From contig CACDWF010000009.1 of NCBI GenBank assembly GCA_902556405.1, positions 1 through 64,000 on the forward strand: DNA of 64,000 nt. The letters run 5' to 3'. Each line of letters begins with the position of its first letter. Positions within the stretch are counted from its first letter, which is position 1. Both the position numbers and the translations under genes were made by a program. Shown piece by piece: positions 12,012 through 61,060 of the stretch. Source of the DNA: an uncultured Alphaproteobacteria bacterium (GTDB lineage: Bacteria > Pseudomonadota > Alphaproteobacteria > Rhodobacterales > Rhodobacteraceae). The notes beneath the pieces were generated by a model. That model was given only the letters and a program-made list of their open reading frames with translations, had not been told where the DNA came from and ran no database searches.

Positions 12012-12040
12012 TTGACAAAGAAGAAAAGAACATTTATAGA
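12012..12040 (+). promoter_or_regulatory. lexA sigma-70 promoter
   Basis: TTGACA (12012-12017, consensus -35), 17-base spacer, TATAGA (12035-12040, -10). It starts right after the moeA stop, so lexA can be transcribed independently of the trp-moe operon. The ribosome binding site GAGAGG (12047-12052) and ATG (12058) follow. Confidence 0.85.
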
Positions 12041-12042
12041 AC
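12028..12042 (+). promoter_or_regulatory. SOS box (LexA operator), autoregulatory
   Basis: Perfect GAAC-N7-GAAC (GAAC at 12028-12031 and 12039-12042), the direct-repeat LexA operator known from Alphaproteobacteria (GTTC-N7-GTTC on the other strand). It covers the -10 hexamer of the lexA promoter, as expected for autorepression. Confidence 0.92.
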
Positions 12043-12057
12043 ATACGAGAGGTTATT

Positions 12058-12699
12058 ATGTTAACAAAAAAACAGCACGAACTTTTATTGTTCCTAGAGG
12101 AAAAAATATCCCAGTCCGGTATCACCCCCTCTTTTGAAGAAATGAAAAACAAAGTAGGGCTAAAATCAAAGTCAGGAATTCATCGACTGATTTCGGCTCT
12201 CGAGGATAGAGGATTTATTAGAAAATTACCTTTTAAGGCAAGAGCGATTGAGGTCTTAAGAATGCCTAGCATAAAGTCAAAGCTCTCGAGCAATAAACCT
12301 AGAATAATTGATAAAAATATTGTTGAGCTGCCTGTTGTAGGTCGGATTGCAGCTGGGCTGCCTATAGAGGCTATTGAGTCAGGCAATAATTCTTTCTTTG
12401 TGCCAAAAGTTTTAACAAAAGGTTCAGACAGTTTTATTCTTGAAATCAAAGGAGATTCAATGATCAATGCCGGTATAAACGATGGAGATTTTGCGATTAT
12501 CAAAAAGCAAAGCACAGCAAATAACGGAGATATCGCGGTCGCCTTAACAAATGACAATGAAGCTACACTCAAAAGATTTAGAAAGCGTGGTGATACAATA
12601 GCTTTAGAAGCTGCAAATGAGTCATTCGAAACCAGAATATACTCAGCTGGTCAAATTAGCATTCAGGGAATTTTGATTGGCTTGATTAGGCAATATTAA
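12058..12699 (+). CDS. lexA: LexA, SOS repressor and self-cleaving protease
   Basis: N-terminal winged helix-turn-helix (residues 1-65; KSKSGIHRLISALEDRGFIRKL) and C-terminal S24 peptidase. Autocleavage bond Ala99-Gly100 in GRIAAGLP; catalytic Ser134 (KGDSMINAG) and Lys172 (EATLKRF). All three are intact, so RecA-triggered inactivation should work. 213 aa, alphaproteobacterial type with a linker of about 30 residues. It is controlled by its own SOS box. A second SOS-controlled promoter in this window lies at 58984-59015. Confidence 0.97.
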   Translation: MLTKKQHELLLFLEEKISQSGITPSFEEMKNKVGLKSKSGIHRLISALEDRGFIRKLPFKARAIEVLRMPSIKSKLSSNKPRIIDKNIVELPVVGRIAAGLPIEAIESGNNSFFVPKVLTKGSDSFILEIKGDSMINAGINDGDFAIIKKQSTANNGDIAVALTNDNEATLKRFRKRGDTIALEAANESFETRIYSAGQISIQGILIGLIRQY

Positions 12700-56700: not shown

Positions 56701-58053
56701 ATGTCAGAGAAAAAAGTCGCTATAGTTGGAGGTGGACTGGCTGGAAGTGAAGCCGCGTGGCAGCTAGGTAGAATGGGTATATCATCAAATTTATACGAAA
56801 TGAGGCCCAATAAAAAAACTCCCGCCCACAAGACTTCTTTGTTAGCAGAGCTAGTTTGCTCAAACTCGTTTAGATCAGATGACCACACAAATAATGCTGT
56901 AGGACAATTACATTGGGAGATGAGAGCTGCAGATGGGCTTATTATCGCAACTGGTGACAAGGCACGCATACCAGCAGGAAGTGCAATGGCAGTTGATCGA
57001 ATGAAATTTTCGTCAGAAATAACTGAGTTAATAAAAAATAATTCTTTTATAAACATAATACAAAAAGAGATAACAGACTTAAAACAATTAGCAGAAGACC
57101 ACGTAATAATAGCTTCTGGTCCCCTTACGTCAAATAAGCTAGCACAATCTCTTATACAAATAACTGGATCAAAAAATTTATACTTTTATGATGCTATAGC
57201 ACCTACCGTCTACGCGGACTCTATTGATTATGAGAGTACATGGTTTCAATCTAGGTATGATAAAGGAGATAGCATTGAAGAGAGGGAAGCTTACCTTAAC
57301 TGTCCAATGACAAAGGATGAATATTATGAATTTGTTTCTAAAATCTCTGAAAGTGAAAAAGCCGACTTTAATGATTGGGAAGCAGATATACCATTTTTCT
57401 CTGGATGTTTACCAATCGAGGTAATGGCATCAAGAGGAAAGGACACGCTTAGATTTGGACCGATGAAACCAGTAGGACTTACAAATCCATACAGTGACGT
57501 GAAACCATATGCTGTGGTTCAGCTGAGAAAGGAAAATAAGGAAGGCACTTTATTCAACATTGTAGGATTCCAAACAAAAATCAAGCATTCTAGGCAAGCA
57601 GAAATTTTGCGGTCAATTAATGGTTTGCAGGAAGCTAGTTTCGCGAGGTTGGGTGGAATACATAAAAATACTTTTTTGAATTCACCAGATATTTTAGATA
57701 AATACTTCCAATTAAAATCATACCCTAACATTAGTCTTGCAGGACAAATTACTGGAGTCGAAGGGTATGTCGAGAGCGCTGCTATTGGCTTGCTGGTGGG
57801 ACGAATAGTTGGAGCAAAAATTCTTGGTAGAGAGGTAAAATTACCGTCTGCCGATACTGCTTTGGGAGCCCTTGCTAATCATCTTATTACACATAATAAT
57901 GACTTTCAACCAATGAATGTAAACTTTGGCCTTTTCAAATCTACTGTGAAAGATTTTAAAGGAAAGAAAAACAGGCGAGAAAGATATGTAGCTTATACGT
58001 CAATTGCAAAATCAAGTTTTCACAATTGGTTAGAGTCCCAAAGGAGTCTCTAA
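56701..58053 (+). CDS. trmFO: tRNA (uracil-54,C5)-methyltransferase, folate-dependent
   Basis: Makes ribothymidine at tRNA position 54 using methylene-tetrahydrofolate and FAD. FAD motif AIVGGGLAGSEAAWQL, VCSNSFRSDD (conserved cysteine), PAGSAMAVDR and TGVEGYVESAAIG. 450 aa. Starts directly after the gyrA stop, so likely co-transcribed. Confidence 0.96.
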   Translation: MSEKKVAIVGGGLAGSEAAWQLGRMGISSNLYEMRPNKKTPAHKTSLLAELVCSNSFRSDDHTNNAVGQLHWEMRAADGLIIATGDKARIPAGSAMAVDRMKFSSEITELIKNNSFINIIQKEITDLKQLAEDHVIIASGPLTSNKLAQSLIQITGSKNLYFYDAIAPTVYADSIDYESTWFQSRYDKGDSIEEREAYLNCPMTKDEYYEFVSKISESEKADFNDWEADIPFFSGCLPIEVMASRGKDTLRFGPMKPVGLTNPYSDVKPYAVVQLRKENKEGTLFNIVGFQTKIKHSRQAEILRSINGLQEASFARLGGIHKNTFLNSPDILDKYFQLKSYPNISLAGQITGVEGYVESAAIGLLVGRIVGAKILGREVKLPSADTALGALANHLITHNNDFQPMNVNFGLFKSTVKDFKGKKNRRERYVAYTSIAKSSFHNWLESQRSL

Positions 58054-58388
58054 AGAAGTTCTTTAAAGAAACATGATTTAGACCCCGTATGACAGGCTGC
58101 ACCAGTTTGCTTGACTTCAAATAGAACTGTATCTCCATCACAATCAATGTGTATTTTTTTTATTTCTTGAATGTTACCAGATGTTTTTCCCTTCACCCAA
58201 ACCTCACCTCTTGACCTAGACCAATAGGTTGCGAGCCCACTTGAAACACTCTGAAATAATGTATCTTTGGATCCCCATGCAAGCATAAGAACCTGCTTAC
58301 TTTCATGGTCTTGTGCTACACAGGGAATCAACCCATTATCATTAAACTTTAAAGCATCTATTTTTTGTTTAAATTTTATTTCATTCAC
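58050..58388 (-). CDS. hisI: Phosphoribosyl-AMP cyclohydrolase
   Basis: Third step of histidine synthesis. Zinc site HIDCDGDTVL and C-terminal AACHTGSKSCF; TYWSRSRGEVWVKG. 112 aa; monofunctional, without the HisE domain. GTG start. Its stop overlaps the convergent trmFO stop by 4 bases. Confidence 0.96.
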   Translation of the reverse strand: MNEIKFKQKIDALKFNDNGLIPCVAQDHESKQVLMLAWGSKDTLFQSVSSGLATYWSRSRGEVWVKGKTSGNIQEIKKIHIDCDGDTVLFEVKQTGAACHTGSKSCFFKELL

Positions 58389-58430
58389 TCTATAGTCCTT
58401 TTGTCGGTAATAAGGGAATCTTTAACACAC

Positions 58431-58868
58431 ATGGATCTATACACAAATAATATTTTAGAACTTGCCTCCACTATTCCCATCACAACTAGGTTAATGAACC
58501 CAGACGTTACTATTACAAAGAGAACTGCAATATGTGGTTCTAGCATTACTTTGGACTTAAACATTTCTGAGTCAACAATATCACAGGTTGGTCTTGACAT
58601 AAAAGCATGTGCACTTGGTCAGGCATCAGCTTGCGTTTTTGTAACCCATGCCATCGGAGCGAATATTGGCATAATAACGGAACTAAGAAAAAACCTAAAA
58701 ACATTCCTGGATACAGGGACCTTTTTAATAAAAGATCCGTTTACTAAATACAAGTACTTCGAACCTGCTCAAAAAGTTCCATACAGGCATGACTCAGTTC
58801 TTCTTATTCTTGACGCTTCAATAGATGCGTTGCAAAAAGTTTCTAGCCTAAAAACAAAAAGTAACTAG
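58431..58868 (+). CDS. IscU/NifU-like Fe-S scaffold-family protein
   Basis: SUF/IscU-like fold: cysteine in RTAICGSSITLDL and the second cysteine in KACALGQASACVF, with a late YRHDSVLLILDAS. About 145 aa. The gene stands alone, divergent from hisI, far from the suf operon. The canonical third cysteine and LPPVK chaperone motif are not evident, so cluster transfer by the usual HscA route is unlikely; a role as scaffold or carrier is inferred. ATG 58431 is preferred to 58365, which overlaps hisI. Confidence 0.8.
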   Translation: MDLYTNNILELASTIPITTRLMNPDVTITKRTAICGSSITLDLNISESTISQVGLDIKACALGQASACVFVTHAIGANIGIITELRKNLKTFLDTGTFLIKDPFTKYKYFEPAQKVPYRHDSVLLILDASIDALQKVSSLKTKSN

Positions 58869-58964
58869 TCCATATAGAAAAAGAGAAATTCCAATAATAA
58901 TTAAATTAACAATGTCTACTACTAGACTTTTTGCTAATATTAAAAATGGTATCTTATTTTTCAT
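58848..58964 (-). CDS. 38-residue hydrophobic peptide under SOS control (new)
   Basis: ATG 58964 with AGGAG (58975-58971) 6 bases upstream, 38 codons, TAG 58850-58848. The peptide starts MKNKIPFLIL and has a hydrophobic helix through about residues 14-36 (LIIIGISLFLYG), N-terminal lysines 2, 4 and 12, Asp17 and Asn20. Ser13, Asp17, Asn20, Ser27 and Tyr31 fall on one face of a helix, a narrow polar stripe. It ends inside the 3' end of the convergent IscU-like gene. The promoter is covered by two overlapping SOS boxes. Size and control resemble TisB or SidA, but I recognise no homologue; function is unknown. Confidence 0.7.
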   Translation of the reverse strand: MKNKIPFLILAKSLVVDIVNLIIIGISLFLYGLVTFCF

Positions 58965-58983
58965 TACTGTCTCCTATACTGTC

Positions 58984-59011
58984 AATATAGAACATAATAA
59001 GAACATGTAAA
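58984..59011 (-). promoter_or_regulatory. Promoter of the small SOS peptide
   Basis: On the minus strand: TTTACA (-35, 59011-59006), 16-base spacer, TATATT (-10, 58989-58984). The predicted start of transcription, about 58977, leaves a leader of about 13 bases that holds only the AGGAG ribosome site. Confidence 0.7.
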
Positions 59012-59015
59012 GAAC
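58990..59015 (-). promoter_or_regulatory. Double SOS box (three half-sites, 11-bp phase)
   Basis: Plus-strand GAAC at 58990-58993, 59001-59004 and 59012-59015, each separated by exactly 7 bases; on the minus strand GTTC-N7-GTTC-N7-GTTC. Both overlapping boxes match the alphaproteobacterial LexA operator and the one in front of lexA here. They fill the spacer between -35 and -10 and extend past the -35. Confidence 0.88.
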
Positions 59016-59035
59016 AAAATGTTTACACAGTCAAA

Positions 59036-61060
59036 TTAATATCGTTTTGGTACTGCAGTTTTAGTATCTTGCGCTAGTTTGTACGCCTCCAAGAATAGCT
59101 CTGGTTCTTCCGTTACTTCAGACACCTTAAATATTTTATGGCCCGATTGCATCGTTCCTAGCAAATCTCCAGAGCCTCTGAGAGCCATATCTTTTTCGGC
59201 AATCTCAAACCCATCCTGCGTCTCTTTCATTATTTTAAGCCTCTGAATAGCTTGATCTGAAAGATTTCCATCATACACGAGAAAGCAATATGATTTTTTA
59301 TCTCCCCTACCAACTCTCCCTCGAAGTTGATGCAACTGTGAAAGACCAAATCTATTTGCATTTTCAATTACAATTGCTGTGGCATTTGGGTTATCTATTC
59401 CAACTTCAATAACAGTGGTTGACACTAAAATATCAATTTTTCTTTCGTTAAATTTTTTAAGTTCACTTTCCTTATACTCACTAGGCATTTGTCCATGAAT
59501 TAGACCAACCTTAAACTGACTAAATTCATTTCTTAAATACAAGAACCTATCATTTGAATTAGAGAGATGGTTATTTTCGTTCTCTTCTATTAACGGACAC
59601 ACCCAATAAACTTGCTGACCTTCAGACATCTGTTTGGCCAACTTATCTAATAGCTTTTTAGTTTTTTTTACAGGTATGGCAAGCGTTTCGATACTCAACC
59701 TGTTTTTTGGTTTCTCCTTGATTGTTGTCAAATCACGATCACTAAATACTGTCAACGCTAAAGATCTGGGTATAGGGGTTGCACTCATTATAATTGAGTT
59801 AACATTGCCTTTTTTTTCCAATCTAAACCTTTGCATTACTCCGAACTTATGTTGCTCATCAATTATGGCCAAGCGAAGATTATGGAAATATACATTTCTC
59901 TGGAAAAGAGCGTGTGTGCCGATCACAATTTTTGCTTCTCCACTAGAAATCAAAAGCAACTTCCTTTTCCTTTCACTTTGATTGTCAGATCCTGTCAAAA
60001 TAGTGGTATTTAATTTCTTTATCTCTTGTACTCTCAATAAGTCTTTTAGTGATTTCATATGTTGCATTGCGAGGACCTCTGTAGGAGCCATAATTGCAAC
60101 TTGATGCCCTCCTGAAACTACAAACATTGCAGCAAGAAGGGCAACAATAGTTTTGCCACTACCAACATCGCCTTGCAGCAAACGATTCATTTTGGACTCT
60201 GATTCAATATCATCTAAAATTTCGTAAAGCGCATTTAGCTGACTTTTAGTAAGCTGGAAAGAGAGACTATTAATTAAGTTATTAATAAGAGCTTTATCCC
60301 CCTGTACTTTGAACCCTTCCCTCTTCTTGGCGGTACGTTTAAATTTATCCAATTTTAGATGATGCGCATAAAATTCGTCAAAAACAAGCCTCTCTCTAGC
60401 CTTCATAATACGGGATAGGTCTTTATTATCTTTAGGCATGTGGATCAGACTTAACGCCTTTAAAAAACTGGGCCAGTTTTTTACTTGAACAAATTTTTGA
60501 GGATACCACTCTTTAGTTGATTTAAAATCACTTAAAATATTACACACTGTTTTATGTAAAAATTTATTCCCTAAACCAATTACAGAGGGATAGATGGGTT
60601 CAATTTGAGGGATTTTAAAGATTTGATCTGGTTTAACGGAATAATCGGGATGTACCATAGTCAACTTACTTCCATCGAGTGTTAGGTCCCCAGAAATCAC
60701 CACATTTTCACCAGGTGGATAATAATTATTCATCTGAATCTTATTAAAAGAAAATAATGTAATTATTAGAGGGCAACCGTATGTTTCTGCTAATATTCTT
60801 AGAGGTGATCGCCTGTTTTTGGGATAAACATGCTTTTTAATTGAAACTTCTATTGTCACAGCTCTAGGAAGCAAACTTTTATCCACTTTAAACCAACGGT
60901 CTCTTCTTTTATATTTTCTAGGTAAAAGAAGTAGAAGGTCTAATGCAGACTCTATGGAAGCTTTTGAAAGTGTTTTGGAAGACTTAGGGCCAATACCTTT
61001 AAGGGTTGAAACACTGCCCAATAAATTCTCTTGACCCACACTTTTAAGAAGATCCTTCAT
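59036..61060 (-). CDS. recG: ATP-dependent DNA helicase RecG
   Basis: Reverses stalled forks and migrates branched DNA. N-terminal helix-hairpin/wedge OB domain (STLKGIGPKSSKTL, about 100-170), SF2 motor with Walker A LLQGDVGSGKTIVALL, DEQH box IIDEQHKFGV, IMSATPIPRSLAL and HQLRGRVGRG. 674 aa. Its ATG overlaps the ligA stop by 4 bases. Confidence 0.97.
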   Translation of the reverse strand: MKDLLKSVGQENLLGSVSTLKGIGPKSSKTLSKASIESALDLLLLLPRKYKRRDRWFKVDKSLLPRAVTIEVSIKKHVYPKNRRSPLRILAETYGCPLIITLFSFNKIQMNNYYPPGENVVISGDLTLDGSKLTMVHPDYSVKPDQIFKIPQIEPIYPSVIGLGNKFLHKTVCNILSDFKSTKEWYPQKFVQVKNWPSFLKALSLIHMPKDNKDLSRIMKARERLVFDEFYAHHLKLDKFKRTAKKREGFKVQGDKALINNLINSLSFQLTKSQLNALYEILDDIESESKMNRLLQGDVGSGKTIVALLAAMFVVSGGHQVAIMAPTEVLAMQHMKSLKDLLRVQEIKKLNTTILTGSDNQSERKRKLLLISSGEAKIVIGTHALFQRNVYFHNLRLAIIDEQHKFGVMQRFRLEKKGNVNSIIMSATPIPRSLALTVFSDRDLTTIKEKPKNRLSIETLAIPVKKTKKLLDKLAKQMSEGQQVYWVCPLIEENENNHLSNSNDRFLYLRNEFSQFKVGLIHGQMPSEYKESELKKFNERKIDILVSTTVIEVGIDNPNATAIVIENANRFGLSQLHQLRGRVGRGDKKSYCFLVYDGNLSDQAIQRLKIMKETQDGFEIAEKDMALRGSGDLLGTMQSGHKIFKVSEVTEEPELFLEAYKLAQDTKTAVPKRY

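Follow-up and report, generated by a model that had tools for sequence, protein, structure and literature searches.

The window, a stretch of 64,000 nucleotides, carries a short minus-strand open reading frame (ORF) for a predicted membrane peptide directly downstream of recG (Table 1). Read along the minus strand, the recG stop (59036) is followed by three GTTC half-sites lying over a TTTACA/TATATT pair, an AGGAG ribosome-binding site, the ATG at 58964 and the stop codon of the peptide. An earlier sequence-only reading of this DNA had described a 38-codon ORF with an AGGAG site between recG and an IscU-like gene. The ORF, its ribosome-binding site, its position and the recG assignment were confirmed, and the IscU-like identity of the convergent gene is moderately supported, by a SufU model match (E 8e-11) that lies under the model cut-off and a NifU_N match at E 0.036. 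The next minus-strand gene, behind the convergent gene, is ORF 58050-58388, which we take to be hisI-like.

Table 1. Features of the peptide locus and of the lexA locus in the window
Feature	Coordinates	Strand	Remarks
recG	59036..61060	-	Upstream neighbour on the same strand as the peptide ORF; conserved
LexA-type operator	58990..59015	-	Three GTTC half-sites with a period of 11 bp (59015-59012, 59004-59001, 58993-58990)
Promoter-like pair	58984..59011	-	-35 TTTACA (59011-59006), 16 bp, -10 TATATT (58989-58984); overlaps the operator
Ribosome-binding site AGGAG	58971..58975	-	6 nt 5' of the ATG; all 14 aligned genus rows have GGAG
Peptide ORF	58848..58964	-	38 codons, ATG start at 58964; product MKNKIPFLILAKSLVVDIVNLIIIGISLFLYGLVTFCF
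IscU/SufU-like scaffold gene	58431..58868	+	Convergent; shares its final 21 bp with the 3' end of the peptide ORF
LexA box GTTCTATAAATGTTC ahead of lexA	12028..12042	-	Autoregulation expected
lexA	12058..12699	+	Presumed regulator; has its own box

The half-sites ahead of the peptide ORF form the two overlapping perfect SOS boxes that had been claimed (strict GTTCN7GTTC at 58990-59004 and 59001-59015, minus strand), and this overlapping pair is the only one among the 45 strict boxes of the genome. The locus thus shows the operator of the alphaproteobacterial LexA (SOS) regulon, GTTCN7GTTC placed over a promoter. In a DNA alignment of the genus the half-sites are nearly invariant, as is the first spacer, which contains the -35 element; the second spacer differs among rows at positions 1-3, and the flanks are more variable. 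At the position of a fourth half-site, 11 bp further upstream, 11 of 14 genus rows read GTTT by eye, one GTTC, one GTTA and the window GTAA, and the operator of the diverged genus member G116 has four perfect half-sites. Promoter-like pairs by themselves occur near the ORF at chance level (6 found vs 4.2 expected), and the weight of the proposed sigma-70 promoter therefore comes from conservation: the TTTACA/TATATT pair is present as described, and 7 of the 14 rows of the genus alignment have TATAAT as the -10 element. Since recG ends ahead of the box and the next minus-strand gene lies beyond the convergent gene, the box is, on this layout, placed to serve the peptide ORF. LexA control of the peptide gene is supported by these sequence features.

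The wider complement of boxes was surveyed in the genome of the window (2.19 Mb in 65 contigs, 80% complete). The 45 strict boxes compare with 57 for the reversed motif; because there is no genome-wide excess, box counts were not used as evidence, and judging chance origin by count alone was set aside in favour of position and conservation. Inspection of all 45 places put 35 inside ORFs of at least 100 aa, one of them (L140) near the 5' end of its ORF. The other 10 comprise seven that lie ahead of lexA, recA, imuA-like, imuB-like and DnaE2-OB-fold genes and the peptide ORF (two), together with three (L141, L145 and L169) that look like chance. The recA box lies at L150, the ImuA-like gene at L138 (NCBIfam E 0.008, under the cut-off) and the gene for the ImuB-like polymerase at L139 (Pfam IMS). 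This set of boxes reads as an alphaproteobacterial SOS regulon.

Several of these genes have features of their own. The ImuA-like (weak match) and ImuB-like genes lie on separate contigs (C4 near 47.7 kb and C6 near 42.5 kb), each with its own LexA box, and on that account appear not to be joined in one operon in this genome; elsewhere imuA and imuB often do. At L143:1047-1382 (G000:C13:28046-28378) a stand-alone 111-aa protein corresponds to positions 939-1037 of the 1047-position model of the DnaE2-type error-prone DNA polymerase (E 5.7e-29); its LexA box ends 2 nt ahead of the listed ATG, and the true start is uncertain. This OB-fold protein occurs in 15 of 22 genus genomes (L143, L375-L389), with a strict box upstream in 14 of the 15. 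Many genus genomes also encode polymerase-type frames near 948 aa, which suggests that in the genus of the window DnaE2 is split, its OB-fold being encoded by an SOS gene of its own. One more SOS gene may lie at L140:1013-1378 (G000:C6 near 46543), where an ORF reaching up to 121 aa carries the LexA box GTTCATCTTTTGTTC close to its 5' end and has no match in NCBIfam.

The product of the ORF is a predicted single-transmembrane (TM) small peptide with a LexA operator. It has a positively charged N-terminus, an aspartate at position 17, a hydrophobic helix at about residues 18-38 and no charged tail, and AlphaFold2 models one helix over residues 4-37 (mean pLDDT 85, pTM 0.48). The sequence-only reading proposed a polar stripe of S13, D17, N20, S27 and Y31, of which D17, S27 and Y31 are invariant over 14 genus rows and S13 and N20 are not among the invariant positions. 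Net charge ahead of the helix ranges from -2 to +4 over nine peptides tested and is zero or negative in three of the nine, so the positive-inside pattern is not uniform; judged by charge and hydrophobicity, an N-in topology appears clear in the window's genus only.

The recG locus was recovered in 16 of 22 genus genomes, and a membrane peptide of 38-39 aa lies there in all 16, found by sequence in 15 and by position in G116; the remaining six genomes, 58-80% complete, had no recG match or an mfd-like paralogue only. Thirteen relatives (L014-L026, apparently 13 of the genus genomes already counted and not counted twice) keep recG, operator and peptide, with 61-92% identity to the window peptide. 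The RecG of G116 is 51% identical, and the diverged 39-aa peptide at the same place retains, by eye, the D, N and Y of the five polar positions. A strict GTTCN7GTTC box is present in 15 of the 16 loci: the operator of G115 has decayed, G100 has a single strict box and the other 14 have two or three overlapping ones. Over codons 2-31, a range that excludes the part shared with the convergent gene, pN/pS is 0.347 for all pairs of 15 sequences, no frameshifts occur, and variable sites are distributed 13/9/23 of 30 over the three codon positions; when both genes are taken from the same seven sequences, the peptide has a pN/pS of 0.280 and recG one of 0.231. These codons are under purifying selection. 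The central claim of the sequence-only reading, a LexA-controlled membrane peptide gene flanked by recG and an IscU-like gene, thus stood up to both genomic tests that could have undone it, namely loss of the operator or ORF in close relatives and frameshifts or synonymous-like drift in the ORF, with LexA control itself read from sequence.

The same data bear on whether the ORF is translated. Real boxes could instead drive an SOS-induced RNA, or transcriptional interference with the convergent IscU-like gene, from an untranslated ORF, and the two genes do converge with overlapping 3' ends. Against this stand the codon-position bias and the pN/pS of 0.35, the conserved GGAG ahead of the ATG and the frames of ~40 aa, in one register, of the 68 family peptides described below, and we regard an untranslated ORF as highly unlikely.

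A counterpart of the locus occurs across the Rhodobacteraceae. Seven of 14 IscU-like-gene loci in other genera show LexA boxes by recG followed by hydrophobic ORFs of ~40 aa, and a profile built from those seven ORFs (A4) matches peptides of ~40 aa with a single helix in 348 of the 394 family genomes searched (E <=0.01), the latter representing 393 genera with nearly one genome each. Matches number one per genome in 344 of the 348 and two in the other four. All 30 of the best matches adjoin recG and have a box starting no more than 110 bp upstream (in one case in GAAC orientation), and the IscU-like gene was found in 25 of them; six of the 30 are profile seeds first seen via their boxes, and the pattern holds in 24 of the 24 that are independent of that choice. 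Among 40 lower-ranked matches, which form two blocks of the listed table and include one seed first seen via its box, a strict box lies within 200 bp in 39, the reversed motif in none, and the C-terminus of recG adjoins in all 40.

A search that started from recG covered 30 chosen genomes (12 weak A4 matches and 18 non-matches) and found the gene in 25. The peptide follows recG in 12 of 12 weak matches, with a box in 11; among the 13 non-matches with recG, the gene is followed by a box and a TM peptide in nine and by neither strict box nor candidate peptide in four. Peptide calls in these two groups depend on a hydrophobicity filter and are less certain, and 26 further non-matches fall outside the examined set. 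Two loci, L336 and that of G185, have a peptide and no strict box. As controls we used 28 recG loci of other alphaproteobacterial families, taken from the better RecG matches in a set of 53 recG-bearing genomes, with their recG ends placed from alignments; none has a strict box within up to 450 nt after recG (one was covered over 264 nt only). Read from these genomes, the order recG, LexA box, ~40-aa peptide is the common form of the gene in Rhodobacteraceae.

Frequent residues in the 30 best family peptides are K6 (24), R11 (18), T15 (27), D19 (29), G22 (29) and P37 (29); the acidic residue of the proposed polar stripe is thus kept outside the genus, and the position of S13 is occupied by Thr in 27 of 30. 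Counted from the C-terminus, the acidic residue is 21 positions away in 65 of the 68 family peptides, in the window peptide and in G116, and 20 positions away in the three remaining family peptides. By eye, the upstream DNA of many of the best 30 reads GTTC-N6-GTTC-N7-GTTCTTTACA, followed downstream by a GAACN7CAAC-like element. Also by eye, a block TGAGAACAAA..CAAC recurs in many family members (L232-L261), placed after the TTTACA element and ahead of the ORF; it looks like a further LexA box in degenerate form, GAACN7CAAC.

The window has the locus layout by which this Rhodobacteraceae family is recognized, with recG, a LexA box and a ~40-aa single-helix ORF on the same strand. Profile A4 does not match the window peptide, and sequence homology between the two was rejected after two comparisons: hhalign gave a probability of 0.2%, and in a position-matrix test with 20000 half-wise shuffles, scores as high were reached by 3017 shuffles for the window peptide, 1705 for the genus consensus, 696 for L023, 4575 for L026 and 752 for G116. 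The matrix was derived from 68 of 70 examined peptides, L329 (insertion) and L336 (longer frame) being dropped, and it preferred another register for the genus peptides. The compact-genome members G033 and G185 score as family (5 and 0 of 20000 shuffles as high, respectively) and provided no bridge to the window peptide in any test run. Because both comparisons failed, we claim equivalence by position only: the window peptide would be the positional equivalent of the family peptides in locus, operator, length and acidic residue, not by significant similarity. The likeness may also have arisen by convergent replacement at the recG locus.

Further profile searches yielded candidates that were rejected as chance. 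The genus profile (A3) gave weak matches in 43 other genomes of the 394 (best E 0.004); of these loci 28 were scanned for boxes, with one strict box found, and five inspected closely held no related short ORF. A class-wide profile search of 289 genomes returned three matches inside the family, all already known from the A4 search, and 10 outside it (E 0.002-0.05); nine of the 10 fall within reading frames 131-613 aa long and the tenth within one of 31 aa, and all 10 were dismissed on the match table alone. Nothing credible was found in Pfam (window peptide, G116 and seven A4 members; best Spec3 at E 0.028 for the window peptide, under the cut-off), NCBIfam (window peptide, G116 and four family peptides) or PADLOC (window peptide, G116 and two family peptides), and the best match of a PDB profile search had an E of 0.12. 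Small SOS-induced membrane peptides are already known as a functional kind; as a protein family, the peptides matched no entry in the libraries searched. Among top-ranked titles and abstract openings we found no published description of a recG-linked peptide locus, and a prior description may exist.

A mobile origin was considered and rejected: neither plasmids nor phages matched a composite consensus of the family, and the genus profile had no relative in viral contigs. These searches also bear on whether the peptide is an SOS-controlled pinholin or other lysis-related peptide, for example one serving the release of gene transfer agents. A small hydrophobic helix would suit such a role, and LexA is described as affecting the CtrA-linked gene transfer agent network of Rhodobacter capsulatus (PMC6473078). 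However, phage records held no match to the family consensus and viral contigs no relative of the genus profile, a scan of seven family peptides (A4 members) against PHROGs gave nothing credible (best E 0.036), and the locus adjoins recG rather than a phage-like cluster, all of which makes a lytic role very improbable.

Known SOS-induced membrane peptides offer two main models, between which the sequence-only reading had not chosen. TisB of Escherichia coli, with its RNA partner IstR-1, is likewise a small membrane peptide and is LexA-controlled; it has 29 aa, charges inside its helix and istR RNAs annotated beside it, neither trait being found for the window peptide. DinQ of the same species is described as an SOS-controlled single-TM peptide of 27 aa with the antisense RNAs agrA/agrB and several transcripts (PMC3567139), an arrangement not seen at the recG locus. 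On the other side, SidA of Caulobacter crescentus is a 29-aa inner-membrane SOS peptide reported to act on FtsW (PMC4211646). By description it resembles the recG-linked peptides as a small inner-membrane peptide under SOS control with the alphaproteobacterial LexA box GTTCN7GTTC (PMC4211646, PMC12700426), although these are longer (38-40 aa). The SOS-induced membrane division inhibitors YneA (Bacillus subtilis), SosA, ChiZ and DivS are comparable too; the single TM helix of YneA is reported to contact FtsW and act through it (PMC13396833, PMC4211646), and the authors of the YneA study describe small membrane inhibitors of late division as more widespread (PMC13396833). YneA differs in having an extracellular LysM domain, whereas nothing follows the helix in the window peptide.

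A toxin of the TisB/DinQ kind would insert into the inner membrane and lower the proton-motive force or alter membrane functions, leading to dormancy, with a hidden antisense RNA, for instance from read-through of the IscU-like gene, as antitoxin. The peptide is of the same size class, with an SOS operator and a single helix; the 27-aa DinQ with its antisense RNA offers a precedent (PMC3567139), and the 21-bp overlap with the convergent gene would allow such an RNA. The helix argues otherwise: across the nine peptides tested its moment (Eisenberg scale) is 0.01-0.12, with no more than one charge per best 18-residue segment (0.12 and zero charges in the TM segment of the window peptide), against 0.35 and two charges for TisB. 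In line with the earlier statement that no antitoxin gene is evident, there is no Rfam match in 58300-59300 and no plus-strand promoter-like site within 58848-59036, although a novel RNA or a read-through transcript may still serve as antitoxin. The single match in 344 of 348 genomes, at a single syntenic place in the loci examined, is also unlike typical toxin-antitoxin loci. The evidence thus leans to the SidA side over the TisB side: the peptide has a non-amphipathic helix, the searches turned up neither an antitoxin candidate nor an Rfam match, and the family loci examined share one chromosomal place. We consider a toxin of this kind unlikely.

The peptide might alternatively be a small bitopic modulator, under SOS control, of a membrane target outside the divisome, such as a transporter, protease, respiratory complex or signalling kinase. 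Modulation of such targets is common among small membrane proteins of bacteria, and the D..G motif and non-amphipathic helix would suit any helix-helix partner. No neighbour was seen that names such a partner, however, and the conserved recG linkage suggests DNA-damage physiology, although linkage alone is no demonstration; we rate this option as fairly unlikely.

The reading we prefer, at a probability of about one half, is that the peptide is an SOS checkpoint peptide that blocks septation from within the membrane, as SidA and YneA do. A checkpoint inhibitor fits better than a depolarising toxin because of the multi-half-site operator over the promoter, the non-amphipathic single helix, the lack of an evident antitoxin and the steady place beside a DNA-repair gene. 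Without damage, LexA would occupy the operator seen over the -35 and -10 elements and keep the gene off; upon DNA damage, RecA-driven cleavage of LexA would free the promoter and the ~40-aa peptide would be made. Its charge and hydrophobicity suggest that it would enter the inner membrane as one helix; an N-in orientation is probable in the genus of the window, and the C-terminus would then lie at the outer face. By analogy with SidA and YneA, the helix would most likely bind a late divisome protein (FtsW, FtsI or FtsN) and hold septal wall synthesis until repair is done.

More tentatively, the unnamed peptide family fixed by recG across the Rhodobacteraceae may constitute a general SOS division checkpoint, in which a C-terminally anchored helix of ~40 aa locks FtsW/FtsI and operators of up to four LexA half-sites are phased at about one helical turn. 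Such a family would evolve fast, the genus of the window having kept the locus and the mechanism and almost none of the sequence.

Small SOS-induced membrane peptides have mostly been found species by species and are easily missed by annotation. Here a single locus, whose operator is recognizable in the sequence, is present in most sampled genera of a large and ecologically important family, several model organisms of which are easy to grow and mutate. The peptide is a good candidate for the Rhodobacteraceae brake on cell division after DNA damage. If it is a division checkpoint, it would explain how division stops after DNA damage in this family and would supply hundreds of natural variants of one inhibitor helix; if it is something else, the Rhodobacteraceae would have a family-wide conserved SOS function that is still without a name.
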